A DNA stretch of 64,000 bases from Pelolinea sp. (lineage in GTDB: Bacteria; Chloroflexota; Anaerolineae; Anaerolineales; Anaerolineaceae). Numbering within the stretch: the first letter of the stretch is position 1; the number at the start of each line of letters is the position of its first letter. Below are positions 9,581 to 63,122 of the stretch, one piece after another. Below the pieces are notes generated by a model. The model searched no databases. It was not told the DNA's origin and was given only the letters and a program-made list of their open reading frames with translations. Both the position numbers and the translations under genes were made by a program. The stretch is from assembly GCA_012797975.1 (NCBI GenBank), contig JAAZOD010000026.1, positions 62,001 to 126,000 on the forward strand. Direction: 5' to 3'.

Positions 9581-11378
9581 TTGCACTTCCTGCTGCATAC
9601 AGCGATTGCCGGACTGAGTCAGGCGGGATATCCAGCATGACCACCAGGTTTTCAACGACATCATGGAATACGGGGGCGGCTACATAAGAACCCCAATACC
9701 CGATCTCCGGATCCGGTTTTTCGACCCACACATACACCAGGAACTGTGGATCATCCACGGGGCCCCATCCAACAAACGATGCATTGGATAGATTGGCGTC
9801 ATATTCACCTTCCACCGGGATTTCTGCTGTGCCGGTTTTCCCTGCTATACGGTATCCATCCACCAATGCCAAGGAACCTTCACCGCCTTCCAATGATTTT
9901 GCTAACAGTTCGTTCATGGTATCCGCTGTTTTTTCGCTGATAGGAACACTTAAAACCTGGGGCTCTGTTTCGTATGTTTCGCCATTGTCAATAATGGCTT
10001 TTACCACATGCGGCTTCATCATTTTGCCACCGTTGGCAATTGCCGAAGCAGCCGTGGCCATTTGAATGGGGGTGACGGCAACACCTTGCCCGAAGGAGTT
10101 GGTAGCCAGGTTGATGGGATACCAACCATCGTCCTCTGGAAGACTGAGCGGCCAAATTTCCTCGCCACCCAGATCGATATTGGTGCGTCTTCCGATACCA
10201 AATGCCTGCATGTAAGAGTAGAAAGCATCGGCACCTAATTTTTCGGTGGCAATCTTTGCCAGGCAAACATTGAGCGAATGTTGCAAACAGCCGAGCGCAT
10301 CCTGCTCACCCCATGATTTACGATTCCAGTTATAGATATAACTGCCATAATATTCGAAATATTGACCCACATCGAATTTATCATCGAGGTCAACTTTCCC
10401 TGAATCAATGGCTGCGGCCATGGTCAGGATCTTGAAGACCGATCCGGGTTCATACGTTTCGGAGATGGCCCGATTGAAAGGCGTCGTATCTTTCAGTTCA
10501 TCTTCATACAACCAGTACTGGTTCAAGTTGATGCGTGGTTGCGAAGCCATGGCGAGTATTTCACCATTCTTGGGATTCATCACAATGATGGTGGCAGATT
10601 TGGCTTTGAATTGCTTTACGGTTTCATCCACTTTTTCTTCTACCATGGCCTGAATTTCACGGTCGATGGTCAATACAAGGCTGGCACCGGAAGGAAGGGT
10701 GGGAGTTTCTTCGATCATATAGGGATCAAGCGGTATTTCCACGGTGACCGGTGGGCCGGAAAGGATATCGTTGTAGTATTCTTCTACCCCGTAGAACCCC
10801 TCACCATTTTTGCGGTCGCGGAATTTATAGAAACCAAGCACATTCGCGGCCAGTGTGTTTTCAGGATAACTGCGCTGTAAATGAGGATACCAGACCATGC
10901 CCCGCAAGCTGGGCAGGTCTGGATCCTCCCCTTCCGGATTGAGCGTTTCATACTCATCCTTGATCTTCGATAATGCATCGATTACACCGGATGGCAGGAA
11001 ATCGGCGATGATGCCATAGATATTTTTCCCATTACCATAATCCAACGAAGCGGTCTCCAACGCATTTTCATAATTTACGTCGGGGATCACCGAGAGCGTT
11101 TCAGCGATGGATTTGGCGTTTTTCACATATTGAAGCAAGACACCAACTTCATAAACCTCTTCATTTCCGGCTAGCAAATGACCCCAACGATCATAAATAT
11201 TTCCTCGTTCCGGATAGATGACTCTTTTTTCATACGTGAATTGCTCATCTGCCCATTCGCTGAGTTTAATATATTCATTGCTATTTTGGATGCGAAATAG
11301 CTGAAAGACGATCACGATAGCAAGGAACAGGCAGATGGCCTTGACGAAATTCAAACGCGCATCAAATTTATATTTCAT
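9564..11378 (-). CDS. ftsI: Class B penicillin-binding protein, septal transpeptidase (FtsI-like)
   Basis: Membrane-anchored transpeptidase that crosslinks septal peptidoglycan, working with FtsW. The 604-residue protein has one N-terminal TM helix (about residues 12-28), a dimerisation domain with the early motif RGNIYDRWG, then a transpeptidase domain. That domain carries the active-site tetrad SVFK (near 310), the triad SLN (near 367) and KTG in AGKTGTAE (near 515). No PASTA domain is visible at the C-terminus. Its start overlaps the ftsL-like stop as ATGA. FtsI is preferred over other class B PBPs because of its place in the dcw operon. Confidence 0.93.
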   Translation of the reverse strand: MKYKFDARLNFVKAICLFLAIVIVFQLFRIQNSNEYIKLSEWADEQFTYEKRVIYPERGNIYDRWGHLLAGNEEVYEVGVLLQYVKNAKSIAETLSVIPDVNYENALETASLDYGNGKNIYGIIADFLPSGVIDALSKIKDEYETLNPEGEDPDLPSLRGMVWYPHLQRSYPENTLAANVLGFYKFRDRKNGEGFYGVEEYYNDILSGPPVTVEIPLDPYMIEETPTLPSGASLVLTIDREIQAMVEEKVDETVKQFKAKSATIIVMNPKNGEILAMASQPRINLNQYWLYEDELKDTTPFNRAISETYEPGSVFKILTMAAAIDSGKVDLDDKFDVGQYFEYYGSYIYNWNRKSWGEQDALGCLQHSLNVCLAKIATEKLGADAFYSYMQAFGIGRRTNIDLGGEEIWPLSLPEDDGWYPINLATNSFGQGVAVTPIQMATAASAIANGGKMMKPHVVKAIIDNGETYETEPQVLSVPISEKTADTMNELLAKSLEGGEGSLALVDGYRIAGKTGTAEIPVEGEYDANLSNASFVGWGPVDDPQFLVYVWVEKPDPEIGYWGSYVAAPVFHDVVENLVVMLDIPPDSVRQSLYAAGSANDSIN

Positions 11379-11846: not shown

Positions 11847-12785
11847 TTATCCGATTTTCTGCGCAACCCGTAATTTTGCGCTGCGCGATCGGGGGTTTAT
11901 TCTAATCTCTTCATCCGATGCTGTGACAGGTTTTTTTGTGAGAATGGCTAAACTGGCTTTATGCTGGCAAGTGCATACTGGCTGTTCGGGGGGGCAGATG
12001 CAGTCCCTCGATTCTCGTTTGAAGATGTCTTTTACGATCCGATCTTCGAGAGAATGGAAAGAAATTACTGCAATCTTTCCGCCTGCACATAATTGGGTGA
12101 TCGCCAGATTGATCCCCTTTTCCAGCACAGACAACTCTTGATTCACAGCGATCCGTATTGCCTGAAAAGTGCGCGTGGCAGGATGAATCCTGGATTTTTG
12201 TCCACCGTAAACCGACTGGACCAGTTGTGCCAATTGGGTGGTGGTATGCAAGGGACGGGCGGCGCAGATGGCTTTGGCAATGGCATGCGCCTTGGGTTCT
12301 TCCCCATAGTTCCAGAGGGTGGAAGCAATCTCTTCCTCGCTCCAATCGTTGAGCAAATCGCTGGCGCGGAAAGTGGCATGATCATCGAAGCGCATATCCA
12401 GCGGTCCTGCCTGGTGGAAAGAAAAACCGCGTTCGGCTGAATCTACCTGCATGGAAGATATGCCCAGGTCGAATACGATCCCATCAACACAGTCCCATCC
12501 CACTTTTTGCAGGCATGTTTTCATCTCAGTATAAGAGATGTTAAAAATGGATGCCCGCTTTGAAAAACCACGCAGACGTTCTGAAGCAATGGCCACGGCA
12601 TGATGGTCAATGTCAAGCCCGATCAGGGAACCATCAGGTTGGCTGGCAGTGAGAATGGCTTCCGCATGCCCACCGGCACCCAGTGTGGCATCCAGATATT
12701 TACCGTTCGAGGTGGGTTTAAGGTATGCGAGGACTTCCCGATTGAGAACAGGAACGTGGGGGTAGGTCTGATCTGCTGGCATCAT
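11847..12785 (-). CDS. rsmH: 16S rRNA (cytosine(1402)-N(4))-methyltransferase
   Basis: SAM-dependent enzyme (formerly MraW) that N4-methylates C1402 in the decoding centre of 16S rRNA. The 312-residue protein starts with HVPVLNREVLAYL, then the SAM-binding DATLGAGGHAEAI, GIVFDLGISSMQVD, RGFSFHQAGPLDMR and the C-terminal ISFHSLEDRIVK, all family hallmarks. It also has a Cys cluster near residue 258 (CICPPEQPVCTC). The ATG overlaps the mraZ stop as ATGA, with GAGGAACC upstream. Second gene of the dcw operon, as in most bacteria. Confidence 0.97.
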   Translation of the reverse strand: MMPADQTYPHVPVLNREVLAYLKPTSNGKYLDATLGAGGHAEAILTASQPDGSLIGLDIDHHAVAIASERLRGFSKRASIFNISYTEMKTCLQKVGWDCVDGIVFDLGISSMQVDSAERGFSFHQAGPLDMRFDDHATFRASDLLNDWSEEEIASTLWNYGEEPKAHAIAKAICAARPLHTTTQLAQLVQSVYGGQKSRIHPATRTFQAIRIAVNQELSVLEKGINLAITQLCAGGKIAVISFHSLEDRIVKDIFKRESRDCICPPEQPVCTCQHKASLAILTKKPVTASDEEIRINPRSRSAKLRVAQKIG

Positions 12786-29751: not shown

Positions 29752-29945
29752 TGGTTGCTTTCACCCGTAAAATTCAGTCCGGGGTCATTTTTGATGGGCG
29801 CTCTGTGGTATGAAGCATCGGCGGATTGTTTGATGGTCCAGTGGTCGCTATTGTCGCGGGTTGTATGGCGGCAGCTTATCGCATCTATCTGGGAGGCAAT
29901 GGAATGATCACCGGTTGGAAAAACGTTTTTTCCGAAAGTACTTGA
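29730..29945 (+). pseudogene. Remnant of a LytS-type 5TM receptor domain
   Basis: Read in one frame, the region gives SGVIFDGRSVV, then a TGA at 29811-29813, then SIGGLFDGPVVAIVAGCMAA and AYRIYLGGNGMITG. This is the hallmark core of 5TM-5TMR_LYT sensor domains (typically GVIFDTRSVLLS...GLFFGP...AYRLYLGG). Only about 70 codons survive, with an internal stop, no proper start and no downstream effector domain, so it is a decayed fragment. It ends right at the promoter of the next gene, which suggests the insertion or rearrangement that brought the SBP module destroyed it. Confidence 0.7.
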
Positions 29946-29969
29946 TTATCTCAAGTCTATCTGTATAAT
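29942..29969 (+). promoter_or_regulatory. Promoter of the first membrane/SBP module
   Basis: TTGATT (29942-29947) and TATAAT (29964-29969) are 16 bp apart, giving a start near 29976 and a short leader to the GGGAGG site at 30023. Confidence 0.6.
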
Positions 29970-30032: not shown

Positions 30033-31682
30033 ATGGAATCCAAGAAAGCATCGATTTTAAAGCCAATCTTGATCTGTCTTTGCAATTTTAATTTTCTCGG
30101 GATTGGATACTTGCTGATCGGGCAGAAAAGACGCTGGCTGATTGCTTTTGGCGGAACAGTGGCCGTGCTGCTGGCGGCATATTTTGCCAATGCGCCAAAA
30201 AATCCATGGTTGTGGGCAGGAGTTTACGCAACCATTCTGATCGCAATGATGGTAGATCTCTGGTTGCTGTTGAAAAAAGATCCGGCGCTTTGCGACAAGG
30301 TTTTAAAGAACAATATGAACTTGCTGATCATCACGGCTGTCTTGCTGGTTGTTTTATTTGGCGGCGGATTTTATTCCTACCGCTGGATGGCAGAAAAGCT
30401 GTACAGAGAGGGTAGTCTGGCTTACTTGAAGGATGATTTTTACACAGCATTCAAAGATCTTTATTCTGATTCTCACTTATACCGGCTTTCTCTTAATCCC
30501 ACGGTGCTTCAAGCACAACAATTATTGGGTGAGGTAAGCTTGATCATTGACAGCCAAAACAAAGTAAAAGGGGGTGACTTTGTTGCGGCTTCCGATCTGG
30601 TGGCAAAATTTCAGAAACTGTATCCAGATTCCTCAAAATTGGATCAGGTCAAGAATATCGGTATCGATGCTTATATTGGTGCAGCGAAGCAACTAACAGA
30701 AAATGCTGAATTTGAAGCGGCGGTGGGAAAGATTGATGCGCTAAGAGAGTTCCTTCCGCTTCAGGCCGAAGAAAGAAAAGCAGAGATCGATGAAGTGCTG
30801 GCTGCCAACTATTTGGCCTGGGGACAGGATCTGTATACCAAGAAAGAATTTGCCAGTTCCATTGAAAAATTCGAGATTGTGACCAACGATTTCAATACGT
30901 CGGAATCCTATACCGAAGCTTTTTCAGGTGCATCGCTGGCACATTATGATTATGCAACGCAGCTTGCAAGCGAACAGAACTATGATCTGGCCTGGGAGCA
31001 ATACCAATCAATTTTCAATAATTACTCTTCGGGAGCAGAATATAGCAAATCCAAAGCAGAAGTGGCAGATATGCTTCTGGATTGGGGGGGAAGTCTGCTT
31101 GATCAGGATCACTTTATTTTGGCGTTGGAAAAATTCAATTTGGTGGGTGAATATAGTTCTGCGGCTGATCTGCTTTCTGCGGCACAGGAACAGAAAGATG
31201 CAACCATTGTGTTGCTGGCGAATGATAGCGGAGAAGATGGACAGAGCGTTATCAGCGCTGCAACGAATGCGGCATGCAGTGGAGAGTCGGTTACCGATCC
31301 ATCCATTGGAATTCTTGAAGAAGAACCCAAGAAAGCGATGGCGTGTGATTCGTATGCGCTCACTTTACCGGACGAAGTGATTGCGGATAAACCAGGCAAT
31401 CTGGCTTATGTGGTGGAACGGGTGGATGACAGCCGCAGAGTGCAGAGCTGTGACTATGTGACTTCGATCGATCGACGTGTTCTTGAGCGATGGCAGTATT
31501 ATTCTGCGATCACGGTCAAGGAAGTGCTCACCGGTAAAACAGTTTATGAAAAAACGTTTTATGGGCCTTCTCCAGAATCATGTCCCTATGAATACTATTT
31601 TGGGAGCATGACGGAATATTTATATGGAGATTATGTAGATGATGAAAAGATCACCGTTTGGCTTGGTGAGGTATTGCAATGA
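30033..31682 (+). CDS. Four-TM protein with TPR-like repeats and four-Cys outer domain (copy 1)
   Basis: A 549-residue protein of unrecognised family. Four TM helices lie in the first 112 residues. Positive loops GQKRRW and the KKDPALCDKVLKNN stretch lie on the inside, placing the C-terminus outside. A helical region follows with three TPR-like units near residues 257-290, 302-332 and 346-375 (WGQDLYTKKEFASSIEKFE is the clearest). The last 150 residues are a beta-rich domain with KPGNLAYVV and four cysteines conserved in copy 2 (one each in NAACSG, MACDS, QSCDY and ESCPY). Start 30033 follows GGGAGG. It overlaps the SBP gene as ATGA. The function is unknown; partnership with the lipoprotein is inferred from the duplicated pairing. 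Confidence 0.8.
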   Translation: MESKKASILKPILICLCNFNFLGIGYLLIGQKRRWLIAFGGTVAVLLAAYFANAPKNPWLWAGVYATILIAMMVDLWLLLKKDPALCDKVLKNNMNLLIITAVLLVVLFGGGFYSYRWMAEKLYREGSLAYLKDDFYTAFKDLYSDSHLYRLSLNPTVLQAQQLLGEVSLIIDSQNKVKGGDFVAASDLVAKFQKLYPDSSKLDQVKNIGIDAYIGAAKQLTENAEFEAAVGKIDALREFLPLQAEERKAEIDEVLAANYLAWGQDLYTKKEFASSIEKFEIVTNDFNTSESYTEAFSGASLAHYDYATQLASEQNYDLAWEQYQSIFNNYSSGAEYSKSKAEVADMLLDWGGSLLDQDHFILALEKFNLVGEYSSAADLLSAAQEQKDATIVLLANDSGEDGQSVISAATNAACSGESVTDPSIGILEEEPKKAMACDSYALTLPDEVIADKPGNLAYVVERVDDSRRVQSCDYVTSIDRRVLERWQYYSAITVKEVLTGKTVYEKTFYGPSPESCPYEYYFGSMTEYLYGDYVDDEKITVWLGEVLQ

Positions 31683-33406
31683 ATAAGAAAACATTCTTCA
31701 GAAAACTTTCAATATTGATGTTGATGGTCATGATGGCCGGCTGCATCCCCATGAGTAATGCCGGTGTGGATAAAAAAGCTGCGATTGTGGCTGAAAAGGT
31801 GATCGAGGAATCGGAGAAACCCAAAAAAGAACCGAAAGAAAAGAAAACAAAATACAATCTGGCAGAGGAACAGGTTTTGAATCTCAGCATCCGCTGTTAT
31901 AACGATTTGAAACCGAGCAATGCGTATGGTGAATACAATGATGTGGTAACTCTCGTACTGCCGGGCCTGACCAGACAGGATGCAACTTCAACCGAATTTC
32001 TGCCAGTTCTTGCAAAATCATGGGAAGTATCAGATGATCGCATGACATGGACGTTCACAATTCGGGATGATGTACCCTGGGTGACATATAACAGTGCGAC
32101 GCAAGAAGTGGAACAGGTTGCAGGGCTCGATGGCAAACCGGCGTATGTCACAGCGCAGGATATTCAGGCACGCCTCCTGCAGATCCTTGACCCTTTTGCT
32201 TATGCTAATAATTCTTATCTGCTCTATACGATCGCTGGCGCGGAAGATTATTTCACTCTAGCCGGAACAGTTGAGGAAGTGCAAATTGAAGTGCCTTCTT
32301 CTACTGAGCTCGTTGTTCATCTACAAGAACCGGATGCAAGTTTCTTATCTTTGACAGAATTATCCATTTTTTCCGCTTTCCCGTCCTGGTTGGATTCCAG
32401 CGATGCTGCGGTCGATTCTTATTCTTATGGACCGTACGTTGGAACAACACCATTGACAGTTGACCATTCGACCGTCACGCTTGTTCAAAACCCATTCTGG
32501 GTTAAAACGGAAGGCCTGGCAGATCCAATCCTGGATCAGATCAACATCGCTATACAATACGATCAGGATGTGTTGACGGCGTTCAGGGATGGGGAAATTG
32601 ATGCAGTTTCTCTCAATGAGGATGAATATCAAGAGGTATTGGAGGATGACACACTTGCACAATATCTGGTCAATGCTCCGGGAGATTTTGGAATTTACGT
32701 ACTTTTTAATAATACAAATCTGGAACCGATCAACGATGTAGAAGTCAGACACGCCATGGCAAGTGTCATCAACAGGGATACCCTGCTGACCGGTCAAGAA
32801 ATGATCAGCGGAAGTGCATTGCAGGGTTTCATCCCCGATTCGATCCGAGGTGCATCGTTTGAAGGCATTCCCTATAACCCAGAAGTGAGCAGCACTCTGG
32901 ACACTCAATCGAGTGCAGCTTTTGATCTCCTTTACAACAGTTATTCTGTCAACCGTGATATTGCACAAGATCTTTCGGATGTATGGAAAGGGGAATTCGG
33001 CTGGGATTTTTATCCGTTCGCTGAAGAGTATGCCTATTTCCTGGATGACCTGCAAAGGATATACACTCAATTTCCTGGTGTATATTTGCTTACCTTCACA
33101 TTGGAAGCCAATGGACAGGAGAATATGTGGAAATATTTGCGGGATGGGAGCAGCTTTGTCGATATTGTGAAAGGAAATTGGAGCAATGAAGAATTCAATT
33201 CCCTCTATGATCAGGCGCAGATGGAACTGGATGGCGAAAAAAGAGCCGAACTTTATGATCGCATGGAAGAGATACTGGTGAATGAGGATGTGGTGATCAT
33301 TCCACTGCTGTGGAAACAACAGCACTGGCTGATTCGTTCTGATGTGGGGGCGGAGATTCGACCGGTGTTCCAGCAATTGGAAAACTGGGCACGTATCGTT
33401 CCATAG
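31679..33406 (+). CDS. Family-5 solute-binding lipoprotein (copy 1)
   Basis: A 575-residue lipoprotein with lipobox MAGC (Cys near residue 21), a long charged Lys/Glu linker (about 35-60), then an SBP_bac_5 fold as in oligopeptide, dipeptide and nickel binding proteins. Family signs include LPVLAKSWEVSDD, WTFTIRDDVPWV and the C-terminal RMEEILVNEDVVIIPLLW. It should sit on the outer face of the cytoplasmic membrane and bind a ligand, perhaps a peptide. No permease or ATPase gene is near, so it may feed a distant transporter or signal through the four-TM protein encoded directly upstream. The ligand is unknown. Confidence 0.85.
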   Translation: MNKKTFFRKLSILMLMVMMAGCIPMSNAGVDKKAAIVAEKVIEESEKPKKEPKEKKTKYNLAEEQVLNLSIRCYNDLKPSNAYGEYNDVVTLVLPGLTRQDATSTEFLPVLAKSWEVSDDRMTWTFTIRDDVPWVTYNSATQEVEQVAGLDGKPAYVTAQDIQARLLQILDPFAYANNSYLLYTIAGAEDYFTLAGTVEEVQIEVPSSTELVVHLQEPDASFLSLTELSIFSAFPSWLDSSDAAVDSYSYGPYVGTTPLTVDHSTVTLVQNPFWVKTEGLADPILDQINIAIQYDQDVLTAFRDGEIDAVSLNEDEYQEVLEDDTLAQYLVNAPGDFGIYVLFNNTNLEPINDVEVRHAMASVINRDTLLTGQEMISGSALQGFIPDSIRGASFEGIPYNPEVSSTLDTQSSAAFDLLYNSYSVNRDIAQDLSDVWKGEFGWDFYPFAEEYAYFLDDLQRIYTQFPGVYLLTFTLEANGQENMWKYLRDGSSFVDIVKGNWSNEEFNSLYDQAQMELDGEKRAELYDRMEEILVNEDVVIIPLLWKQQHWLIRSDVGAEIRPVFQQLENWARIVP

Positions 33407-33431
33407 TTTTCTAGAACAGTAGTAATGAGAA

Positions 33432-33465
33432 GCCAGAGGTTTTCTAGATTTCAACCTCTGGCTTT
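33432..33465 (+). terminator. Terminator of module copy 1
   Basis: A perfect 10-bp stem GCCAGAGGTT / AACCTCTGGC (33432-33441 with 33453-33462) followed by a T-rich stretch, 25 bases after the SBP stop. A related stem closes copy 2. Confidence 0.8.
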
Positions 33466-33652
33466 AACTTTTCTGTATTTAAGAGGAAAGACGAATTTGC
33501 TATAAATATCGACTTGGCCAAGAGGAAAACAGAGTTCAGGAATCATCGATTTTTAGATGTATGGTTAAAAGTTTTTCTGAAAAGCCAAAAAAAGCAAGAT
33601 TAAAAAGAACAGATTACTTCTTACAAGACATGTTTGTTGCCTTGGAGGGGAA

Positions 33653-35035
33653 ATGAGAATAAACAAAGATTCACCCATAAAACCTTATTTAGTTTGTCTG
33701 TGCAATCTGAATTTTCTTGGTTTAGGTTATTTGCTCATCGGACAGAAGAAAAGGTGGTTTATCGCTTTCGTGGCATCATTATCTATGCTGCTTATTGCTC
33801 ATTTTACCAATGCGCCAACGAGACCCTGGTTATGGATGGGAATTTACTTGGTGTTTTTAATTGGCATGGCGTTGGATATGGGACTCCTTATTAAAAAGAG
33901 TAATTCGGTTCAGGAGAGGATTTTAAAAAAGAGTTTGACCTCTCTGATACTGATCACATTAATGATTGGGATAGTGTTTGGAGGAGGATTCTTTTACTAC
34001 CGAAATGCAGGCGAAATGTTATACCGGCAGGGGGTAATTGCTTATGAAGATGATGATATGCAAACTGCGTTCAAAGATCTGTACTCGGTTTCTACACTGT
34101 ATCGACTTTCTCTTGATGCTTCCGTACTAGAAGCACAAAAAATGATCGATGAAGTTAGTTTGATTACGTCAATAAAAAATCACATTGAAATTGGCGATTT
34201 AACAACTGCTTCTGCGATGATCAAGACATTCAAAATTCTGTATCCCAATTCAACAAAAATAGAGCAAGTCGAAAAAGTGGATTTTGATTCGCGTCTTGAA
34301 TTGGCAATCCAGTCAACAGGATCTGGCGAATACGAGACCGGTCTCCAAAAGATTGCAGACCTCGGAACAGAATACCCCACCCTCTATAAAGAGAGAAAAG
34401 AAGAGATCGACCAAGTATTGGCGACCAATTATTTTGAATGGGGGAGGGACCTGATTGATAATGGTCATTATTTCCTGGCAATAGGGAAATTAAACAAGGT
34501 TATGGAATATAGTAATTCTTCTGAATTACTCGCAAAAGTCCAAGATGAAAAAGAGGCAATCATCCCCTTGATTGCTAAGGATACTGGCGAAGATGGGCAA
34601 AAGATCCTTTCACATGCCACGATAACCGCTTGCGGCGGCTCCTATGTGCTAGACCCAACGATTGGCATTTTAGAGGGTGAACCGAAGAAAGTTAAAGTTT
34701 GTCCTGCTTCCACTGTTTCTGTTCCCCAGGAGTTCATTGCAGAAAAACCCGGAAATTTAACGTATGTGATAAAAAGAAGTGACGGTTCTTCGCTGTTTGG
34801 AAGATGCACGTACTACACCACATTCAAGAATGGCGTGGTAGAAGCTCGACAACTTAACGCTACTGTCAATATCATCGAAGTGCAGACTGGAAGAATTGTT
34901 TTCCAGAAGATATTCTATGGTTCGACCCCCATTTGCCCCGGAACATATCAATTTACAAATTCCCTTCAATTACCGATTTTGGGGGGAAACGTAAGTGATC
35001 AAGAAATTACAGACTGGATCAATGAGGTGCTGTGA
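33653..35035 (+). CDS. Four-TM protein with TPR-like repeat and four-Cys outer domain (copy 2)
   Basis: A 460-residue paralogue of the 30033 protein. The N-terminal block is nearly superimposable (ICLCNFNFLGIGYLLIGQK versus VCLCNLNFLGLGYLLIGQK), again with four TM helices. The outer domain keeps KPGNLTYVI and four cysteines (TACGG, KVCPAS, GRCTYY and PICPG). It is about 90 residues shorter because it has only one TPR-like unit (YFEWGRDLIDNGHYFLAIGK) where copy 1 has three. GGAGGGG precedes the ATG. Its stop overlaps the next ATG as TGATG. Unknown function; same inferred partnership as copy 1. Confidence 0.8.
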   Translation: MRINKDSPIKPYLVCLCNLNFLGLGYLLIGQKKRWFIAFVASLSMLLIAHFTNAPTRPWLWMGIYLVFLIGMALDMGLLIKKSNSVQERILKKSLTSLILITLMIGIVFGGGFFYYRNAGEMLYRQGVIAYEDDDMQTAFKDLYSVSTLYRLSLDASVLEAQKMIDEVSLITSIKNHIEIGDLTTASAMIKTFKILYPNSTKIEQVEKVDFDSRLELAIQSTGSGEYETGLQKIADLGTEYPTLYKERKEEIDQVLATNYFEWGRDLIDNGHYFLAIGKLNKVMEYSNSSELLAKVQDEKEAIIPLIAKDTGEDGQKILSHATITACGGSYVLDPTIGILEGEPKKVKVCPASTVSVPQEFIAEKPGNLTYVIKRSDGSSLFGRCTYYTTFKNGVVEARQLNATVNIIEVQTGRIVFQKIFYGSTPICPGTYQFTNSLQLPILGGNVSDQEITDWINEVL

Positions 35036-36768
35036 TGAACAATAAAATGCTGAATATTATTACGTTATGTATTTTGTTGTTTATGCTGGCGGGCTGCGTT
35101 TCTTTCGATGAAGGCCAAGTCAGTGAAAAAACCGATGAGATCGCTGAAAAGATAATTCAAGAGAATCCAAATCAGGATGAACTGGAAGTGAGCGATCGGA
35201 ATGCTGAACCGGATGCTGTTAGATCGATATTGAATCTGAGCGGTCGCAATTTTGACGGGTTCGGCCTGAACGACGCGTTCGGAGATGAAATGAGCATCCT
35301 CAACCTTATTTCTCCCGGCTTGACACGCTATGATCCTGACTCGATGCGGTTTTTACCAGTCTTGGCTGAAAGCTGGGAGATATCGGATGATCTATTAACC
35401 TGGACTTTCACCCTGCGGGATGATATTGCCTGGGTCGTGGTTGACACAACCAATCAGGAGGTTAGACAGGTAACAGACTCAGATGGGGAAGTCATTTTTC
35501 TTTCGGCAAACGATATCAAGAATCAATTGCTCTATACTCTTGCTCCCGGCTCAGGCAGTGATTTTTCTTATCTGCTTTTCAATATTGTGGGCGCACAGGA
35601 ATATGCATCGGGAACAGGTGGCGAGGAGGGAGTGCAGATTGAGGTTCCTTCCGAAGATAGGTTGGTAATCCACTTGAAAGAACCTGATGCCGGTTTGCTG
35701 GATCTGACGGAACTCAATCTGTTTTCGGCTTTTCCCACATGGCTGGACCAAGGCGATTCTACCGGGCGAAGCTATTTTTATGGTCCTTTCATTCCTGCCA
35801 GTGCCTTGACCATTGATAATGATGAATTAATATTAGTCAAGAATTCCTATTGGCCAGGGACGGAAGGTCTTGCAATGCCATCGATGGATATGATCAATAT
35901 CACCATACAGAACAGTCTGGATGTTTTGGAAACTTTTAGGGTGGGAGCATTGGATGCGGTTCTATTGACGGACACGGAATATGAAATCGCACTCGCTGAT
36001 CCAGAACTGGCGGATAGCATTGTCAGCGTTCCCGGCAGAGTCGGTCTTTATATGCTCTTCAATAATACCGATTTGGAACCTCTGAATGATGTCAATGTAC
36101 GTCGGAGTATTGCAGGATCATTGGACAGATCTTCTCTCATGGATTCTTTGGAGAAGGGCGAGTGGATTGTGCAGGAAGGTTTCATCCCGGATTATTTACG
36201 AAAAGAACCCTTTGATGGAGCTTCCTATTCCAGCAATGCCAACAGCTCAACAGCAGATTTCAACATGGCAGGCATTGACCTGATCTCTTATGGTCTTTCC
36301 ACAAAAATTAGCAATGCAATCTATTTTCAGTTATCGGAGAAATCAAAATTGAATTTCTTCCCCCATTTTGTGTCGAACAGTGGCACGGATGAATCCTCTC
36401 TGTATACTGAACTGAATCAAAACTATAGTGACAGTCCCGGAATTTACATGTTGCATTTTTCTTTGAATGAAAACAGCCAGCAGGAAATGTGGGATTCTCT
36501 ATATGACCCAATGACTTTCGTGGAGATTCAAAATGGAAACTGGAATAATTCAGAATTCACTGATCTCTTTAATCAAGCCAAACAGGCCACAAATCCTGAG
36601 GATCGGATAGATCTCTATGCCCGCATGGAAGAAATCCTGGTGAATGAAGATGTCATGATCATTCCTATTTTTTGGGCTCAGGAACATTGGCTGGTCAGTC
36701 AAGATCTCAACGCGGAGATATTACCGCTTTATCAACAATATGAGAATTGGTCACATATAGCACCTTGA
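35035..36768 (+). CDS. Family-5 solute-binding lipoprotein (copy 2)
   Basis: A 577-residue paralogue of the 31679 lipoprotein with lipobox LAGC (Cys near residue 20), an acidic linker, and the same SBP_bac_5 fold: LPVLAESWEISDD, WTFTLRDDIAWV and RMEEILVNEDVMIIPIFW. The overall layout is collinear with copy 1, but the residues are widely different, so the duplication is old or the copies diverged to bind different ligands. ATG 35035 is used; a GTG three bases earlier is in frame. The pair ends at the terminator near 36795. No ABC membrane or ATPase gene is adjacent. Confidence 0.85.
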   Translation: MNNKMLNIITLCILLFMLAGCVSFDEGQVSEKTDEIAEKIIQENPNQDELEVSDRNAEPDAVRSILNLSGRNFDGFGLNDAFGDEMSILNLISPGLTRYDPDSMRFLPVLAESWEISDDLLTWTFTLRDDIAWVVVDTTNQEVRQVTDSDGEVIFLSANDIKNQLLYTLAPGSGSDFSYLLFNIVGAQEYASGTGGEEGVQIEVPSEDRLVIHLKEPDAGLLDLTELNLFSAFPTWLDQGDSTGRSYFYGPFIPASALTIDNDELILVKNSYWPGTEGLAMPSMDMINITIQNSLDVLETFRVGALDAVLLTDTEYEIALADPELADSIVSVPGRVGLYMLFNNTDLEPLNDVNVRRSIAGSLDRSSLMDSLEKGEWIVQEGFIPDYLRKEPFDGASYSSNANSSTADFNMAGIDLISYGLSTKISNAIYFQLSEKSKLNFFPHFVSNSGTDESSLYTELNQNYSDSPGIYMLHFSLNENSQQEMWDSLYDPMTFVEIQNGNWNNSEFTDLFNQAKQATNPEDRIDLYARMEEILVNEDVMIIPIFWAQEHWLVSQDLNAEILPLYQQYENWSHIAP

Positions 36769-36793
36769 TATCCGATTATTTTGAATACTAAAA

Positions 36794-36832
36794 GGGCCAG
36801 AGATGGGGTTTGACCTGCTCTCTGGCCTTTTT
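36794..36832 (+). terminator. Terminator of module copy 2
   Basis: Stem GGCCAGAGA / TCTCTGGCC (36795-36803 with 36819-36827) followed by T5. The stem sequence resembles that of the copy 1 terminator (GCCAGAG core), consistent with duplication of the whole transcription unit. Confidence 0.85.
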
Positions 36833-37069
36833 GTTGCAAGGATCAGGGAACAGACAAGCTTACTTTGTCGCTGTACGTAGACAGTGATGGAATTTGTTTT
36901 GCGAAGCTGATCCCGCAAACCGACTACACTCAATGTATGAAAATAAATTCTATTTACAAAGTAATAAATAATAGTAAAATAATACAGGTGTACTATTTAT
37001 AAATAATGCAAATAATATTAATAATAATAAGAAATGCTTTAATAATATTCATTTCAAGAGGTAAATAAA
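36833..37069 (+). other. AT-rich intergenic region before the MFS gene
   Basis: No gene is supported. The last 120 bases are extremely A/T-rich (runs such as TTTATAAATAATG and AATAATATTAATAAT) and hold the probable promoter of the MFS gene, but no -35/-10 pair stands out. GAGG at 37058-37061 is the ribosome binding site. The more GC-rich left part (36840-36940) has an open plus-strand frame with no recognisable product. Confidence 0.4.
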
Positions 37070-40933: not shown

Positions 40934-41902
40934 ATGAGTGCAATTGAAGTCATCAACTTACAACGAGAATTCCAGACCACCATCGGGGTTTTCAATCGAA
41001 AGAAAAAAATAGTTCCAGCCGTGAAGGGCATTTCCTTCGAAATTGCAGGTGGCGAGCTGTTCGGTTTGCTGGGCCCGAACGGGGCAGGCAAAACCACTTC
41101 GGTGAAAATGCTGACCACCTTGCTCATCCCCACCGGTGGCACCGCAAAAATTCTCGGTTTGGATATCGTTAATGATGCCGAAGCAGTACGTCCACGTATC
41201 GGTTTCATCTTCGGCGGCGAACGCGGGCTGTATTGGCGTTTGAATGCCACCGATAACCTGCGTTACTTTGCCAGTTTGTACTATCTTGATCCAGCGGTTT
41301 CCAAAAAACGCATCCCCTATTTATTGGAAATGGTCGGGCTGACGGACCGCGCGGATGAAAAAGTGGAAGGATATTCGCGCGGCATGCGCCAGCGTTTGCA
41401 CATTGCGCGCGCCTTGCTGCATGATCCCGAAGTGTTGTTTTTGGATGAGCCAACCATGGGGCTGGATCCGGTGGGAGCACGCGAATTGCGTCAGACTGTG
41501 CGCAATCTGCAAGATGAAAAGAAGACTATCCTGCTGACCACCCACTATATGTTCGAAGCGGATGCGCTCTGTCAGCGCGTGGCGGTTATCAATAAAGGGG
41601 AGATCGTAGCCATGGATACCCCCTCGAAGTTAAAGGATTCGGTCAATGATCTTTCCGTAGTGGAGATTGAAGTGTTTGGCATTCCCCCGGAGACGGTGGA
41701 GAAGATCAAGACCCTGTCGATGGTGGAAAATGTCAGCGTGGAAGACCGTGACCAGCTCCAGCTTCTATTGGTACATACCTCCAAGGGGGCGGAGGCGATT
41801 CCGCTTTTGATCTCTGAATTGAATGGTTTGAAATTGGGAAAGGTGACCACGCGTGAGCCAACCCTTGAGGATGCCTACGTGCGGTTGGTGGGAGGGGAAT
41901 GA
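40934..41902 (+). CDS. ABC-2 type exporter ATP-binding protein
   Basis: A 322-residue ATPase subunit of an export ABC system. It has Walker A GPNGAGKTT near residue 52, signature YSRGMRQRL near 145, Walker B VLFLDEPTMGLD, and the H-loop TTHYMFEAD. The C-terminal 80 residues form the extra domain seen in drug, polysaccharide and DrrA-like exporters. The insert NRKKKIVPAVKGISF is shared with viologen and daunorubicin-type exporters. It overlaps the first permease gene as ATGA and heads an operon that ends with the NifS-SelD fusion. Confidence 0.93.
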   Translation: MSAIEVINLQREFQTTIGVFNRKKKIVPAVKGISFEIAGGELFGLLGPNGAGKTTSVKMLTTLLIPTGGTAKILGLDIVNDAEAVRPRIGFIFGGERGLYWRLNATDNLRYFASLYYLDPAVSKKRIPYLLEMVGLTDRADEKVEGYSRGMRQRLHIARALLHDPEVLFLDEPTMGLDPVGARELRQTVRNLQDEKKTILLTTHYMFEADALCQRVAVINKGEIVAMDTPSKLKDSVNDLSVVEIEVFGIPPETVEKIKTLSMVENVSVEDRDQLQLLLVHTSKGAEAIPLLISELNGLKLGKVTTREPTLEDAYVRLVGGE

Positions 41903-42702
41903 TGACCGCCTGGCAGAGAATAAAAGCTAACCTGCGTGTCGTTTTCATGGCATTCGAGATTGAATTGCGTCAATCTTTTACCGATGCTTTTGTGTTATTC
42001 GGGATCATCGTACAACCGACCATTGTTGCTTTTATGGCATTATGGATGTTGAAGGATCAGGTTGCCAACTATGCGATCTTTGTGGTGGTGGGCAGTGCCA
42101 TGACTGGCCTGTGGACCACTCTGCTATTTCAGGGCGGAAACAGCATTACCGGTGAACGCTGGACAGGAACCCTGGAACCTTTAAGCTGCGCACCGGCCCC
42201 CTTGCGGGCGGTGGTGTCGGGCAAGCTGCTGGCAAATATCACACAATCATTATTATCCCTTATTTGCTGCTATACCTTTATTTCTTTGATCATGGGGTTA
42301 CCGCTTACCATAGCCAACCCCGGGTTATTTGCTGGCTCTATTGTGCTGACCGTGGTGGCTTTCATTGCGTTCGGATTGATCATTGGCTCATTGTTCATTC
42401 TTAATCCGGATGTGCAGCGTTTCCAAAATGGGCTGGAATTCGTCGTGTATATCTTTTCCGGTTTCTTGTTTCCCATTGCTCTGCTGCCCATGTGGACCAC
42501 GCCCTTCAGTTATATTCTTACCCCGTATTGGGCTGCTCGTGCACTGCATGCAGCCTCCAGCGGAACCGGCAGTGATGGAGAAATCTATTTTTGTTGGGCA
42601 ATGCTGATTGTGTTCAGCATCCTTTATGCCATTGTCTCAAAATTCCTCTTCAAATCCATTTTGCGGAAAGCAAGAGAAGACGCCACTTTGAACATGCAAT
42701 GA
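41899..42702 (+). CDS. ABC-2 type exporter permease 1
   Basis: A 267-residue ABC-2 permease with six hydrophobic segments. The extended N-terminal amphipathic region (VVFMAFEIELRQSFTDA) and the ERWTGTLEPLSCAP segment near residue 85 are typical of the family. The substrate is unknown. It overlaps the ATPase gene and the second permease gene by four bases each, so the three products should be made together as an ATPase plus a permease heterodimer. Confidence 0.88.
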   Translation: MMTAWQRIKANLRVVFMAFEIELRQSFTDAFVLFGIIVQPTIVAFMALWMLKDQVANYAIFVVVGSAMTGLWTTLLFQGGNSITGERWTGTLEPLSCAPAPLRAVVSGKLLANITQSLLSLICCYTFISLIMGLPLTIANPGLFAGSIVLTVVAFIAFGLIIGSLFILNPDVQRFQNGLEFVVYIFSGFLFPIALLPMWTTPFSYILTPYWAARALHAASSGTGSDGEIYFCWAMLIVFSILYAIVSKFLFKSILRKAREDATLNMQ

Positions 42703-43505
42703 TTATGGAAAAATTAAAACTGAACATAAAGATCTTTTTTGAAGGTGCTTACTTATCGTATGTGGGGCTTTTTCGCTGGTTGAGCCCTTCCACCTATCTG
42801 GCCACCTTGATATTTTCACCGCTCACTCAAATGCTGTTTTTTGTGCTGATCGGGACCTACGCACAGGGTACCGATAAAGCATATTTCTATGTGATCGGCA
42901 ATGCATTGATGAATGCTGCCATGAGCGGCATCTATGGCGTTACCATGAGCATTGGGGGTGACCGTTGGGATGGCACGCTGCCTTATTTGTTTGGCGCACC
43001 CGCCAATCGAATGACGGTCTTTCTGGGGAGAGCGTTCATGCACATTCTGAACGGCATGATCGGTGTGCTGACCGGTTTGTTGTGGGGATGGCTGCTTTTC
43101 CATATTGATTATTCTGCGGCCAATCCATGGGCATTGCTGCTCACCATTCTGGTAACTACCTTCAGCACGTCCGGATTGGGGTTGCTGATGGGCTGTATCG
43201 GATTGATCACGCGCAATGTGATGTTTGTGAACAATACCGTATATTTTGTCCTGCTCGTTTTTTCTGGAGCGAATCTGGATCTGGCTACACTACCCTCTTG
43301 GATGCGCATCGTTTCTAACTATCTGCCTTTGACACGTGGTATCGCTTCCGCCCGTTTGATCATCGCCGGGCATAGTTTGACAGAAGTGTTGCCATTGCTC
43401 ATCGAAGAATTTGGCATTGGGCTGTTCTTTGCTTTGCTGGGTTATTCTTTATTCCGCTGGTTTGAGATCACAGCCAAGAAACGAGGGACACTGGAAGTAT
43501 TTTGA
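42699..43505 (+). CDS. ABC-2 type exporter permease 2
   Basis: A 268-residue ABC-2 permease with six hydrophobic segments and GGDRWDGTLPYLFGAP near residue 90, parallel to the equivalent loop in permease 1. ATG 42699 overlaps the preceding stop as ATGA; a longer frame back to 42591 would run through permease 1 and is not used. The C-terminus RWFEITAKKRGTLEVF is basic and cytoplasmic. Partner of permease 1 in one exporter. Confidence 0.88.
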   Translation: MIMEKLKLNIKIFFEGAYLSYVGLFRWLSPSTYLATLIFSPLTQMLFFVLIGTYAQGTDKAYFYVIGNALMNAAMSGIYGVTMSIGGDRWDGTLPYLFGAPANRMTVFLGRAFMHILNGMIGVLTGLLWGWLLFHIDYSAANPWALLLTILVTTFSTSGLGLLMGCIGLITRNVMFVNNTVYFVLLVFSGANLDLATLPSWMRIVSNYLPLTRGIASARLIIAGHSLTEVLPLLIEEFGIGLFFALLGYSLFRWFEITAKKRGTLEVF

Positions 43506-43513
43506 GGTGAATT

Positions 43514-45718
43514 ATGCAAAAGCCGGTCTATCTGGACTATAACGCCACCACACCCATTGCTCCGCAGGTTGCGGAAGCGATGCGGCCGTATATTTATGAG
43601 AATTTTGGAAACCCATCCAGCAGCCATGCCTATGGCAGTGCAGCCAAAAAAGGGGTGGAGAGGGCGCGCAGGCAGGTGGCGGAGATGTTGGGCTGCCAGC
43701 CGGATGAGATTGTTTTTACCAGCGGCGGCTCCGAATCCAATAATCTGGCCATCAAGGGTGTGGCTTTTGCCTATCGTGAAAAAGGCAATCACATCATCAC
43801 CTCTGCGGTGGAACACCCAGCGGTGCTGGATGTGGTGAAATATCTCGAAAAGCAGGGCTTTCGCATTACCATTCTGCCCGTGGATGAGTACGGGATGGTG
43901 GATGTGGGGGATGTGGAACGGGCTATCACACCGGATACCATCTTGGTCAGCATTATGCATGCCAATAATGAGGTGGGTACCATTGAACCGATCCGGGAGA
44001 TCGCGAAAATTGCCCACCAGCATCAGGTGCTGGTGCATACGGATGCGGCTCAATCGGTTGGAAAGATCCCGGTCCGGGTGGATGAACTGGGTGTGGACCT
44101 GCTTTCCATAGCCGGGCATAAACTGTATGCTCCCAAAGGGATCGGAGTGCTGTTCATCCGCCGGGGGGTGCGTGTGGAAAAGATCATGCACGGTGCCGAA
44201 CATGAGATGAACAAGCGCGCCGGAACGGAAAATGTGATCGAGATCGCAGCGCTGGGACAGGCATGCGAATTGGTCGACAAACAGCTGGCTCAATATCAGA
44301 CCCACATGCTTGAAATGCGTACACATCTGGAAAAAGGATTGAAAACGGCTTTTCCCAACTTGAAAATCAACGGGCATCCTGAAAAACGTCTTCCCAACAC
44401 CACCAATGTGAGTTTTTACGGCTTGGAGGCCAACACTATTTTATCGGAGTTGGATCAGGTGGCTGCATCGGCAGGAGCTGCCTGCCATTCCGATCAGGTG
44501 GATGTTTCTCCGGTCATTGCGGCTATGGGTGTTCCATTGGAATATGCCATGGGAACCATCCGGTTTTCAGTTGGGCGCAATACCACACAGGAAGAGGTCG
44601 ATTTCGCTCTGGAAGAGATCCAGCGGGTGATTGGAAATCTGCAAGCTCAAGAAAAACCCACGCTCAAAGAAGGATCAACACAGGGTATTCGTTTAACCCA
44701 CTACACCCACGGGCTGGGCTGTGCCTGTAAATTGCGACCGCAATTGTTGGAAGAAGTGTTGGCGGAGATCAGCCCTCCTCAAGATAAACGTATCCTGGTG
44801 GGAACAGAAACCGGGGACGACGCTGCGGTCTATTTGATCAATCCAGAGACTGCTATTGTTCAAACGGTCGATTTTTTCACTCCCATTGTGGATGATCCTT
44901 ACCTGTTTGGCGCCATTTCCGCTGCCAATTCACTCAGTGATATCTATGCCATGGGTGCCACGCCCCTGTTCGCGCTTAATATTGTTGGCTTTCCCAGTAA
45001 CCGGTTGCCGATGACCGTGCTGCGTGAGATCTTGCGCGGTGCGCAGGAGAAAGCCAAGGAAGCGGGAATTTCGATCATTGGCGGACATAGCGTGGATGAC
45101 ACTGAGCCGAAGTACGGTATGGCGGTGACAGGGGTGGTGCATCCCGATAAGTTGGTTACCAATGCCAGCGCCCGGGCTGGGGACCAACTGATCCTGACCA
45201 AGCCAATCGGCACCGGAATTTTGACTACTGCCTTGAAACAGGGATTGCTGGAAAAAGACCAGGTTGACCCGCTGATTGCCAGTATGTCCATGCTCAATCA
45301 GAAGGCGGGAGTGGCGTTGCAACAATTCCATGCACATGCCTGCACCGATGTGACCGGTTTTGGACTGTTGGGGCATTTGCTGGGAATGATGAAAGCAGCC
45401 AACCTCTGTGCCGTTTTGGATGCAGATGCCATCCCGACCCTGCCGGGGGTGTACGACCTGGCAGCCGCAAGCGTCATTCCAGGGGGTAGCCGCAACAACT
45501 ATGCCTATACTAAACCGTATGTCGAATACGCGGAAGAAATGACAGAGGTCCAGCAACTTATCCTCAATGATGCACAAACGTCAGGTGGGCTGCTGATGGC
45601 GGTGGAAAAATCTTCTGTTTCTTCAATGATTAATTTCCTGACGAATGAGGGTATTTTTGCTTCAAAAATCGGGGAAGTAATGGAGAAAAAAGAGAATTTC
45701 TACATCATTGCTAAATAA
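43514..45718 (+). CDS. Cysteine desulfurase-selenophosphate synthase fusion (NifS-SelD)
   Basis: A 734-residue bifunctional protein. Residues 1-385 are a PLP cysteine desulfurase: YLDYNATTP start, TSGGSESNNLA, SAVEHPAVL, the PLP-lysine segment SIAGHKLYAPKG, and active Cys in SAGAACHS near 324. From about 392 the protein is SelD: GLGCACKL with the catalytic Cys-Lys, GDDAAVYLI, DFFTPIVDDPYLFGAISAAN and ALNIVGFPSN. The first half could supply selenium (selenide from selenocysteine or cysteine persulfide), the second makes selenophosphate for selenocysteine or selenouridine tRNA. The catalytic position is Cys, not selenocysteine. Eight bases after permease 2, last in its operon. No selA, selB or selU is in the window. 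Confidence 0.93.
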   Translation: MQKPVYLDYNATTPIAPQVAEAMRPYIYENFGNPSSSHAYGSAAKKGVERARRQVAEMLGCQPDEIVFTSGGSESNNLAIKGVAFAYREKGNHIITSAVEHPAVLDVVKYLEKQGFRITILPVDEYGMVDVGDVERAITPDTILVSIMHANNEVGTIEPIREIAKIAHQHQVLVHTDAAQSVGKIPVRVDELGVDLLSIAGHKLYAPKGIGVLFIRRGVRVEKIMHGAEHEMNKRAGTENVIEIAALGQACELVDKQLAQYQTHMLEMRTHLEKGLKTAFPNLKINGHPEKRLPNTTNVSFYGLEANTILSELDQVAASAGAACHSDQVDVSPVIAAMGVPLEYAMGTIRFSVGRNTTQEEVDFALEEIQRVIGNLQAQEKPTLKEGSTQGIRLTHYTHGLGCACKLRPQLLEEVLAEISPPQDKRILVGTETGDDAAVYLINPETAIVQTVDFFTPIVDDPYLFGAISAANSLSDIYAMGATPLFALNIVGFPSNRLPMTVLREILRGAQEKAKEAGISIIGGHSVDDTEPKYGMAVTGVVHPDKLVTNASARAGDQLILTKPIGTGILTTALKQGLLEKDQVDPLIASMSMLNQKAGVALQQFHAHACTDVTGFGLLGHLLGMMKAANLCAVLDADAIPTLPGVYDLAAASVIPGGSRNNYAYTKPYVEYAEEMTEVQQLILNDAQTSGGLLMAVEKSSVSSMINFLTNEGIFASKIGEVMEKKENFYIIAK

Positions 45719-61820: not shown

Positions 61821-63122
61821 ATGCGTGCAGTTGATATCATCATCCGCAAACGAGAAAAACAAGAGCTTAACAAAGAAGAGATTGATTTCTTCATTGACGG
61901 TGTGACCAAGGGCTCCATTCCTGATTACCAGATCTCTGCCTGGGCAATGGCTGTTTTGCTAAACGGCATGACCCCCCAAGAAACAACCTATCTAACCCTG
62001 GCAATGGCTCATTCGGGAGATATCCTTGACCTCTCCTCCATTGCTCCGCTGGTAGTCGATAAACATTCTTCCGGTGGAGTGGGCGATAAGACCACATTGG
62101 TGGTTGCCCCGATCGTGGCTTCTTATGGGTTGCCGGTCGGAAAAATGTCTGGCAGAGGTCTGGGATTCAGCGGGGGAACGCTGGACAAGATGGAATCCAT
62201 TCCCGGTTATCGCGTGGATTTGAGCGAAGCAGAATTTATGAGTCAGTTGAAAGAAATTGGTATTGTTCTGACCGGACAATCTGGTGATCTGGCACCTGCC
62301 GATGGAATCCTGTACGGGCTTCGCGATGTGACCGGAACGGTGCCTTCGACCCCCTTGATCGCATCATCCATCATGAGTAAAAAGATTGCTGCCGGTGCGC
62401 AGGCCATTGTGCTGGATGTAAAGCTTGGGTACGGTGCATTTATGAAAGATCTGGAAAGTGCCCGCGAATTGGCGCAGCTAATGGTGCAGATCGGGGAACT
62501 CAGCGGCCGAAAGGTGCGCGCTTTGCTTTCGGATATGAACCAACCATTGGGTGAAGCGGTGGGCAATGCCATTGAATTGAAAGAAGCCATTGAAACACTG
62601 CATGATGGTGGACCGGCCGATTTCAGGGAACACTGTTTTACGGTTTCTGCCCATATGTTGCTGCTTGGCAAGAAAGCGGAAACTTTGGACGCTGCCCGCG
62701 CTATGGCCGAACAAGCGGTCCGGGAAGGAAAGGCATGGGAAAAGTTTGTCCAACTGGTGAAAGCTCAGGATGGTGATCTATCTTTCATCGAAAATCCTGA
62801 AAAATTGCCTTCCGGATCGATCCGTGAAGAAATCAAAGCGGACAATGACGGATATCTTTCCATGGTGAACGCTCAAGCGGTGGGTGAGGCAGCCGTGCTG
62901 TTGGGTGCCGGACGTGAAAAGAAAGGTGCCCCGATCGATCTTGGAGTGGGAATTCTTGTCTATCATAAAGTAGGCGCTGCGGTTCAGAGAGGGGATGTGC
63001 TCTTTACGATCATTGCCAATGATGCCACGCGTTTGAATGCAGCGAAAGAAAAGTTGAAAGAAAGTGTTGGTATCAGTGAAGAAAAGTGTGCTGCACTACC
63101 ACTCTTCTATGGTGTTCTGTAA
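61821..63122 (+). CDS. Pyrimidine-nucleoside/thymidine phosphorylase
   Basis: A 433-residue salvage enzyme that splits thymidine or uridine with phosphate. It has the helical dimer domain MRAVDIIIRKREKQ, KHSSGGVGDKTTLVV near residue 80, the thymidine phosphorylase signature SGRGLGFSGGTLDKME near 110, ADGILYGLRDVTGTVPS and the C-terminal GVGILVYHKVGAAVQRGD. It resembles both Pdp and DeoA; the base specificity cannot be told. AAGGAGGT lies four bases upstream of ATG 61821, so the longer TTG start at 61800 is not used. Confidence 0.92.
   Translation: MRAVDIIIRKREKQELNKEEIDFFIDGVTKGSIPDYQISAWAMAVLLNGMTPQETTYLTLAMAHSGDILDLSSIAPLVVDKHSSGGVGDKTTLVVAPIVASYGLPVGKMSGRGLGFSGGTLDKMESIPGYRVDLSEAEFMSQLKEIGIVLTGQSGDLAPADGILYGLRDVTGTVPSTPLIASSIMSKKIAAGAQAIVLDVKLGYGAFMKDLESARELAQLMVQIGELSGRKVRALLSDMNQPLGEAVGNAIELKEAIETLHDGGPADFREHCFTVSAHMLLLGKKAETLDAARAMAEQAVREGKAWEKFVQLVKAQDGDLSFIENPEKLPSGSIREEIKADNDGYLSMVNAQAVGEAAVLLGAGREKKGAPIDLGVGILVYHKVGAAVQRGDVLFTIIANDATRLNAAKEKLKESVGISEEKCAALPLFYGVL

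Follow-up and report, generated by a model that had tools for sequence, protein, structure and literature searches.

Orphan solute-binding lipoproteins are common, and most of them have no assigned role. BamD serves as a scaffold for other lipoproteins, and the solute-binding protein (SBP) NspS is not of the PF00496 type. NspS and MbaA form a known SBP-receptor pair that works without transport. In TPAT (TPR-protein-associated TRAP transporter) of Treponema pallidum, a TPR protein, TatT, is encoded beside a solute-binding lipoprotein, TatP, and was shown to form a complex with it (PMC5812351); TPAT is the nearest described analogue of the genes treated here. These are two consecutive gene pairs in a 64-kb window (positions 62,001 to 126,000 of contig JAAZOD010000026.1) of the 2.57-Mb, 98.5% complete genome of Pelolinea sp. 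In each pair a membrane protein with a TPR region, here called the platform, is followed by an SBP_bac_5 lipoprotein, here called the head. We suggest, at about even confidence, that each pair encodes a membrane-anchored, BamD-like TPR docking platform together with its own exchangeable lipoprotein binding head.

The likeness to TPAT lies in a TPR protein that is encoded next to an SBP, an arrangement found here in nine of twelve loci that have both the transmembrane (TM) domain and the Cys domain of the platform. The differences are several: the SBP of TPAT is of the DctP type while those of the window belong to PF00496; its TPR protein is a soluble lipoprotein while the platform is TM-anchored and carries a Cys domain; TPAT has a TRAP permease while none was recognised beside the window pairs, which are flanked by YifB (upstream, opposite strand) and a major facilitator superfamily gene (no separate TRAP profile search was run); and, unlike in TPAT, heads have been exchanged on the platform. 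Because the SBP family differs, the platform has a TM anchor and no TRAP permease was recognised, we do not place the pair within TPAT. TatT was not among the 50 matches listed for the full platform model, which is no evidence against the likeness. BamD/YfiO is the best structural match to residues 163-406 of the TPR part (3qky, Z 11.9, 222 residues, rmsd 4.5 Å, in a comparison where repeats score high generally), but BamD is lipid-anchored, while the platform is TM-anchored and has the additional Cys domain. The window heads resemble Opp/Dpp SBPs in being clear PF00496 members, and differ from them in having no permease or ATPase of their own, a lost Cys pair, an altered Asp motif and an extra linker motif. 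NspS-MbaA is similar in that an SBP works with a non-transporter membrane protein; MbaA, however, has a c-di-GMP output module, and the platform has none. An earlier sequence-only reading of this DNA knew of no described system of this kind, and none was listed in full-text literature searches, which reached few subscription papers.

The genes of the two pairs and their main elements are:

30033..31682, + strand: platform protein 1 (549 aa), with predicted hydrophobic hairpin and three TM helices, TPR helices and four-Cys domain
31679..33406, + strand: SBP_bac_5 lipoprotein 1 (575 aa), PF00496 8e-30, translational overlap ATGA
33653..35035, + strand: platform protein 2 (460 aa), with a shorter TPR region
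35035..36768, + strand: SBP_bac_5 lipoprotein 2 (577 aa), PF00496 5.2e-28, TGATG junction
31275..31679, + strand: four-Cys alpha/beta domain of platform 1 (Cys 415, 438, 473, 517), from an AlphaFold2 (AF2) model
31742..31801, + strand: lipobox Cys and linker motif CIPMSNAGVDKKAAIVAEKV of lipoprotein 1, from the linker profile
35095..35154, + strand: lipobox Cys and linker motif CVSFDEGQVSEKTDEIAEKI of lipoprotein 2, from the linker profile

The tandem arrangement put forward in the sequence-only reading, with the same gene order, ATGA and TGATG junctions and similar terminators, is borne out by the coordinates and by two hairpins with GCCAGAG in their stems. That reading also described the second genes correctly as SBP_bac_5 lipoproteins and the paralogues as widely divergent: identity is 47% between the platform proteins and 43-44% between the SBPs. 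Lipoprotein 2 is given with the ATG start at 35035, but a GTG at 35032, in the same frame, could serve as start instead.

Pairing of platform and lipoprotein across loci

The TM and Cys domains occur together in twelve loci, of which one is divided between two contigs (L050 and L051, taken as halves of one gene of genome G002); genes beyond the window were called with a simple longest-open-reading-frame script, and their starts are approximate. A lipoprotein gene lies within 20 nt downstream of the platform gene in 11 of the 12. In nine an SBP_bac_5 lipoprotein is directly downstream (the window twice, L048, L049, L050/L051, L052, L105, L054 and L055). The head of L053 is a PD40 beta-propeller lipoprotein (PF07676, 1.1e-51), and that of L107 is a 444-aa lipoprotein with no Pfam match (E up to 0.1) and no PDB sequence relatives (E up to 0.01). 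Platform and head genes overlap in eight of the 11 pairs, with ATGA in six (window pair 1, L048, L049, L052, L105, L053) and TGATG in two (window pair 2, L051); short gaps separate them in L054, L055 and L107. By one lipobox rule, lipoproteins make up 11 of the 16 tight downstream partners of all family members vs 10 of 236 other tight neighbours, a comparison drawn from longest-open-reading-frame gene calls at the same, partly homologous loci; by eye and with a looser rule, 15 of the 16 are lipoproteins, a count for which no background rate was computed.

A TM-domain match without a Cys-domain match was found in three further loci. Two of these have no countable partner (L056, at a contig end, and L127, an 89-aa remnant), and L106 was excluded as a pair: its WD40 gene lies 127 nt downstream with no visible signal peptide, on a contig with undetermined bases. 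The remnant of L127 (2961-3230, + strand) stands between YifB and a regulator-like gene, where L105 has an intact pair. YifB, on the other strand, is the upstream gene in the window, L049 and L105. In L048 and L050, two of the five loci of the window's genus, YifB and the pair are separated by a sensor-type gene that is not found in the window, along with another gene:

L048 3429-5477 and L050 15646-17742, + strand: 5TM-5TMR_LYT/GAF/HD gene, in the window's sister species

On the platform tree, some rows of which are long, the PD40-headed platform of genome G009 falls in a 100/100 clade with seven SBP-headed platforms, which group among themselves at 93/92, while a second G009 platform and the G026 platform, both SBP-headed, lie outside that clade. 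The approximately unbiased (AU) test rejected the SBP-headed platforms as one clade (p 4.35e-7) and also the two otherwise-headed platforms as one clade (p 2.3e-5). Since the SBP-headed platforms are not one clade, heads have been swapped, and the SBP is therefore not the constant part of the pair; the constant partner is a lipoprotein. The interpretation given in the sequence-only reading is thus supported in part: the pairing holds, but its fixed member is a lipoprotein and not an SBP as such. The nine SBP heads as one clade were not rejected (AU p 0.333), which is compatible with single or repeated recruitment of an SBP; more distant SBPs of the same subfamily are located in apparent Opp operons. 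Forks around pair 2 are weak and compatible with an origin of that pair before or within the genus. A parsimony count of two head changes was dropped, as three states require two changes on any tree.

The second line of evidence is a short motif after the lipobox. A linker profile of 20 residues anchored at the lipid-bearing Cys, built from seven SBP heads, scores 7.6 on the PD40 head, 6.9 on the distant SBP head of G009 and 0.9 on that of G026, while the best of 85 control lipoproteins reaches -3.4; with a sliding score, these three heads are still above 85 of 85 controls. A linker in the 444-aa head of L107 was dropped, since 17 of the 85 controls score as high with sliding. This membrane-proximal motif, common to two unrelated folds, is the strongest sign of docking, on the strength of a single non-SBP head.

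Platform architecture, heads and transporter genes

Neither platform protein reaches the cut-off of any Pfam or NCBIfam family, and scores for TIGR03302 (BamD/YfiO) are 19.9 and 21.3 bits against a cut-off of 81.4. Platform 1 is laid out as a hydrophobic hairpin and three TM helices (residues 11-116), a TPR part (about 119-414) and a four-Cys domain (about 415-549); its full-length AF2 model (mean pLDDT 80.1, pTM 0.55) is highly confident for the TPR part and modestly so for the TM part (about 65-90 per block). The sequence-only reading had described four TM helices, TPR-like repeats and a four-cysteine outer domain. The repeats and the four Cys hold, the latter being invariant in 10 of 10 aligned members, while the membrane part reads better as three TM helices and a re-entrant hairpin. 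Mean Lys plus Arg counts over 14 members are 2.86, 0.71 and 3.43 for loops 1, 2 and 3, which would put loops 1 and 3 in the cytoplasm and leave loop 2 and the C-terminal portion outside. Of the four hydrophobic segments, the first is thus probably not membrane-spanning; in the AF2 model it forms a short helix (9-20, then 24-28), and helices 32-51, 58-82 and 95-132 follow. The window platforms would then have a cytoplasmic N-terminus of about 8 residues and cytoplasmic loops of about 7 and 14.

A sequence-profile match of the TPR region to 3qky (1.7e-10) accompanies the structural match to BamD. The Cys domain, modelled with its preceding helices, reaches a mean pLDDT of 91.6; its start (417-457) is below 50 in the full-length model and confident when folded alone. 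Its fold has no significant match (best Foldseek E 0.02), and matches at Z up to 5.2 (flagellar LPHT ring, CsgG, LptE, TolB N-domain) were a mixed set of proteins and were not trusted. The disulfides of this domain would form outside the cell. In cousins that have the Cys domain only, the Cys pattern is looser: the last two Cys are found in most and are absent in four (L114, L117, L118, L119).

The N-terminus varies across the family. In the window proteins and the nearest genera, 8-13 residues precede the hairpin, while several relatives have extensions of 47-227 residues, some showing Cys pairs by eye. The platforms of L053 (about 12035-12425, + strand) and L055 (about 10030-10400, - strand) have N-terminal domains, presumably cytoplasmic, that contain Cys pairs and are related to each other (two-sequence comparison: 26% identity, E 7e-6). 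Elsewhere in the family, L122 (6995-8641, + strand) encodes a WD40 lipoprotein whose C-terminal end carries part of the platform Cys domain, so that a head type and Cys-domain sequence are naturally fused, and L110 (4086-10147, - strand) encodes a zinc-ribbon/TPR/Cys-domain protein just upstream of two FHA-domain protein kinase genes.

Both window SBPs score above the 32.4-bit cut-off of PF00496 and have the lipobox Cys; their nearest solved relatives by sequence are DppE (8ay0) and OppA (8are). In OppA and DppA, the Asp of a C-x-D motif anchors the N-terminus of the peptide. An alignment reveals a Cys pair common to two ABC-linked SBPs and the heads of G020, G145, G009 and G026, and these SBPs also have C-x-D, except the G145 head. 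Other SBPs of the same fold occur elsewhere. In several Anaerolineaceae (L057, L058, L060, L062), SBPs stand beside response-regulator-like and large lipoprotein genes near apparent Opp operons, as judged by eye, and a stand-alone SBP of the window's own genome (L174) adjoins a response-regulator gene, also by eye. L067 (7171-19998, + strand, contig 56 of G008) is a giant open frame with two SBP_bac_5-like regions, of 4276 residues in the retrieved stretch and 5229 residues by search.

The sequence-only reading had stated that no ATP-binding cassette (ABC) permease or ATPase lies beside the pairs in the window. This is right for an SBP-dependent importer: the cognate permease and ATPase genes of an Opp/Dpp importer were not found at the window pairs. 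It is wrong for ABC genes as such, as an ABC ATPase and two ABC-2 permeases lie at 40934-43505, 4.2 kb downstream of the pairs; this set is of the ABC-2 type and no SBP-dependent importer. No PF08352 (Opp/Dpp) ATPase was found on the window's contig C8. Among the eight genomes with SBP pairs, only G026 and G145 have one on the contig of the pair, at about 100 kb and, in the single-contig G145, about 750 kb from it. In the window's own genome, eleven matches amount to ten SBP_bac_5 genes, and eight ATPase matches, one of them below cut-off, to four Opp/Dpp ATPase pairs. An SBP gene is found no further than about 5 kb from every one of these ATPase pairs (L173, L175, L176, L177; permeases by eye). 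A distant importer without an SBP of its own, which the sequence-only reading had suggested looking for, was thus not found among the Opp/Dpp loci of this genome. That reading had also held that homologues beside ABC permease genes would tell against it, and here the picture is divided: SBP-headed platform loci have no Opp/Dpp genes beside them, while the distant SBP relatives do sit in apparent Opp operons and two loci with other heads are near ABC genes. These are L053, with an ABC ATPase and two ABC-2 permeases (an ABC-2 exporter) upstream, and L107, where a LacI-like gene and then an apparent sugar ABC set with its own binding protein follow 1.5 kb downstream (by eye). Together with the sensor-type genes of L048 and L050, these are the nearest genes for transport or signalling observed around the platform loci.

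A proposed surface complex and its alternatives

On the reading we favour, the N-terminus of the platform would be short and cytoplasmic; a re-entrant hairpin of hydrophobic residues would come next, then three TM helices and, outside the cell, a TPR stack resembling BamD and an alpha/beta domain of the disulfide type. The head would be held by its lipid in the outer leaflet and consist of a short conserved linker followed by a binding domain, here an Opp-type SBP. Coupled translation would allow the two to be made together, the membrane-adjacent linker would dock the head onto the platform, and the head would bind its ligand and, having no ABC importer of its own, hold or present that ligand on the cell surface. 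In this scheme the platform would stay constant, and the head could be exchanged (an SBP, a PD40 propeller or another protein). More tentatively still, Anaerolineales may possess modular surface complexes in which one TM-TPR-Cys platform accepts linker-docked heads of different kinds (SBP, beta-propeller, another fold, with LRR, i.e. leucine-rich repeat, and other lipoproteins beside some Cys-domain cousins), a transporter-free plug-in system for reception or capture. If this is true, a platform that keeps its place while its partner changes fold would provide some orphan SBPs with a mechanism other than transport and add a second kind of TPR-SBP partnership to that of TPAT. A member is found in a named, completely sequenced strain, Pelolinea submarina, so that docking and head specificity are open to direct tests.

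Several points weigh against this reading. The AU groups were defined by head type, but they were tested after the tree had been seen, and helical repeats can commonly reach BamD-type Z values below about 13. The linker motif is not above controls in the L107 head or in the LRR and other cousin heads, so the case for the linker rests on one non-SBP head. Distances between platforms and between SBPs do correlate (r 0.871, 0 of 5000 permutations), in favour of the reading, but this correlation also reflects shared species history, and seven of the nine SBP pairs come from two related genera. One locus with TM and Cys domains, L112, has no downstream partner, and the remnant L127 in G144 shows that the pair can be lost. 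Only four of the 20 cousins with the Cys domain alone have a tight downstream lipoprotein: an LRR protein in L116 (overlap 4), one with a weak carboxypeptidase-regulatory-like match in L109 (overlap 4), and two without an assigned fold in L111 and L166. Of the remaining cousins, L114 precedes a different gene, and the other 15 lack a tight neighbour on the same strand or lie at a contig end; pairing therefore marks the TM-containing class above all. Finally, both Cys of the Cys pair are lost in all five heads of the window's genus, and the Asp of C-x-D has become Glu in lipoprotein 1 and Asn in lipoprotein 2. Ligand binding by the window SBPs is therefore not assured, and the ligand of these heads may have changed or been lost.

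Among the alternatives, the BamD-like protein could serve its own lipoprotein specifically as a chaperone or as a sorting or folding factor, without being a permanent partner, which we regard as unlikely. BamD is indeed the closest solved structure to the TPR part, the partners in the 11 tight pairs are lipoproteins of differing folds, and translational coupling would suit a chaperone; against this, 84 of 819 called genes score as lipoproteins and just 11 of these are counted partners, so that most do without such a neighbour, and the fusion of Cys-domain sequence to a WD40 lipoprotein in L122 suggests a structural role. Somewhat less probable again is uptake in the manner of TPAT, with the TPR protein or, in trans, a distant Opp/Dpp importer receiving the ligand from the SBP, so that the pair would be a transporter accessory. 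The TatT-TatP complex and the four Opp/Dpp ATPase pairs of the genome speak for it, but all four importer loci have their own SBP, no Opp/Dpp ATPase is near the SBP pairs, and a PD40 propeller is ill suited as a transport subunit.

We give little credence to a signal receptor, in which the ligand-bound head would alter the platform and a signal would cross the TM region to a cytoplasmic partner. The N-terminal extensions of several relatives would fit, as would the sensor-type gene upstream, if not directly adjacent, in L048 and L050, and the example of NspS-MbaA. In the window and the nearest genera, however, the N-terminus is very short, and YifB, no sensor, is next upstream in the window, L049 and L105. 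No GGDEF/EAL or other output domain was found in either platform protein with Pfam and NCBIfam, and sensing is therefore without direct support; of the ligand sensing envisaged in the sequence-only reading, there remains the upstream gene in two of five loci. It is very improbable that the genes are simply neighbours, with an operon shared by descent and unrelated roles. The two related genera that supply most SBP pairs, which are near YifB wherever that side of the contig is visible, would allow it, but the pairs of G009 and G026 are deep and have different surroundings, the lipoprotein keeps its position while its fold changes, and the linker motif is common to two folds.

Distribution and other features of the window

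A profile of platform 1 finds matches in 11 of the 147 genomes sampled from its family, in 30 of 400 from the order (in three other families of the order, 19 of 152, 3 of 38 and 2 of 27) and in 35 of 400 from the phylum; many matches within the family and order cover the TPR or Cys parts only, and among the matches listed those outside the order cover only TPR positions 156-383. The Cys-domain profile alone matches four of 400 genomes: the window's own, two of the order and one of the class (9.1e-7). Among the sampled genomes, the architecture of TM and Cys domains was thus found in this order alone. A pattern search of genome contigs with platform protein 2 as a single protein gave nothing, while one with alignment A2 gave eight loci, in records of Anaerolineaceae UBA4781, Pelolinea submarina MO-CFX1 and metagenome-assembled genomes of Chloroflexota or Anaerolineae. 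The family was not found in the viral contigs searched, and a PADLOC search gave no match at 0.001.

The signals around the two pairs are:

29942..29969, + strand: promoter-like site TTGATT-16-TATAAT, 5' of pair 1, consensus match 10/12
33429..33465, + strand: hairpin terminator of pair 1, -20.1 kcal/mol, z -4.2
36789..36833, + strand: hairpin terminator of pair 2, -27.5 kcal/mol, z -6.7

Neither hairpin was picked up by a consensus terminator scan restricted to loops of 3-8 bases. The promoter-like site is weak evidence, as 19 such sites were found vs 14.4 expected. Further downstream, the window encodes at 43514-45718 (+ strand) a 734-aa protein in which a class-V aminotransferase of the cysteine desulfurase type is fused to AIR-synthase-like domains (Pfam), presumably a NifS-SelD fusion.

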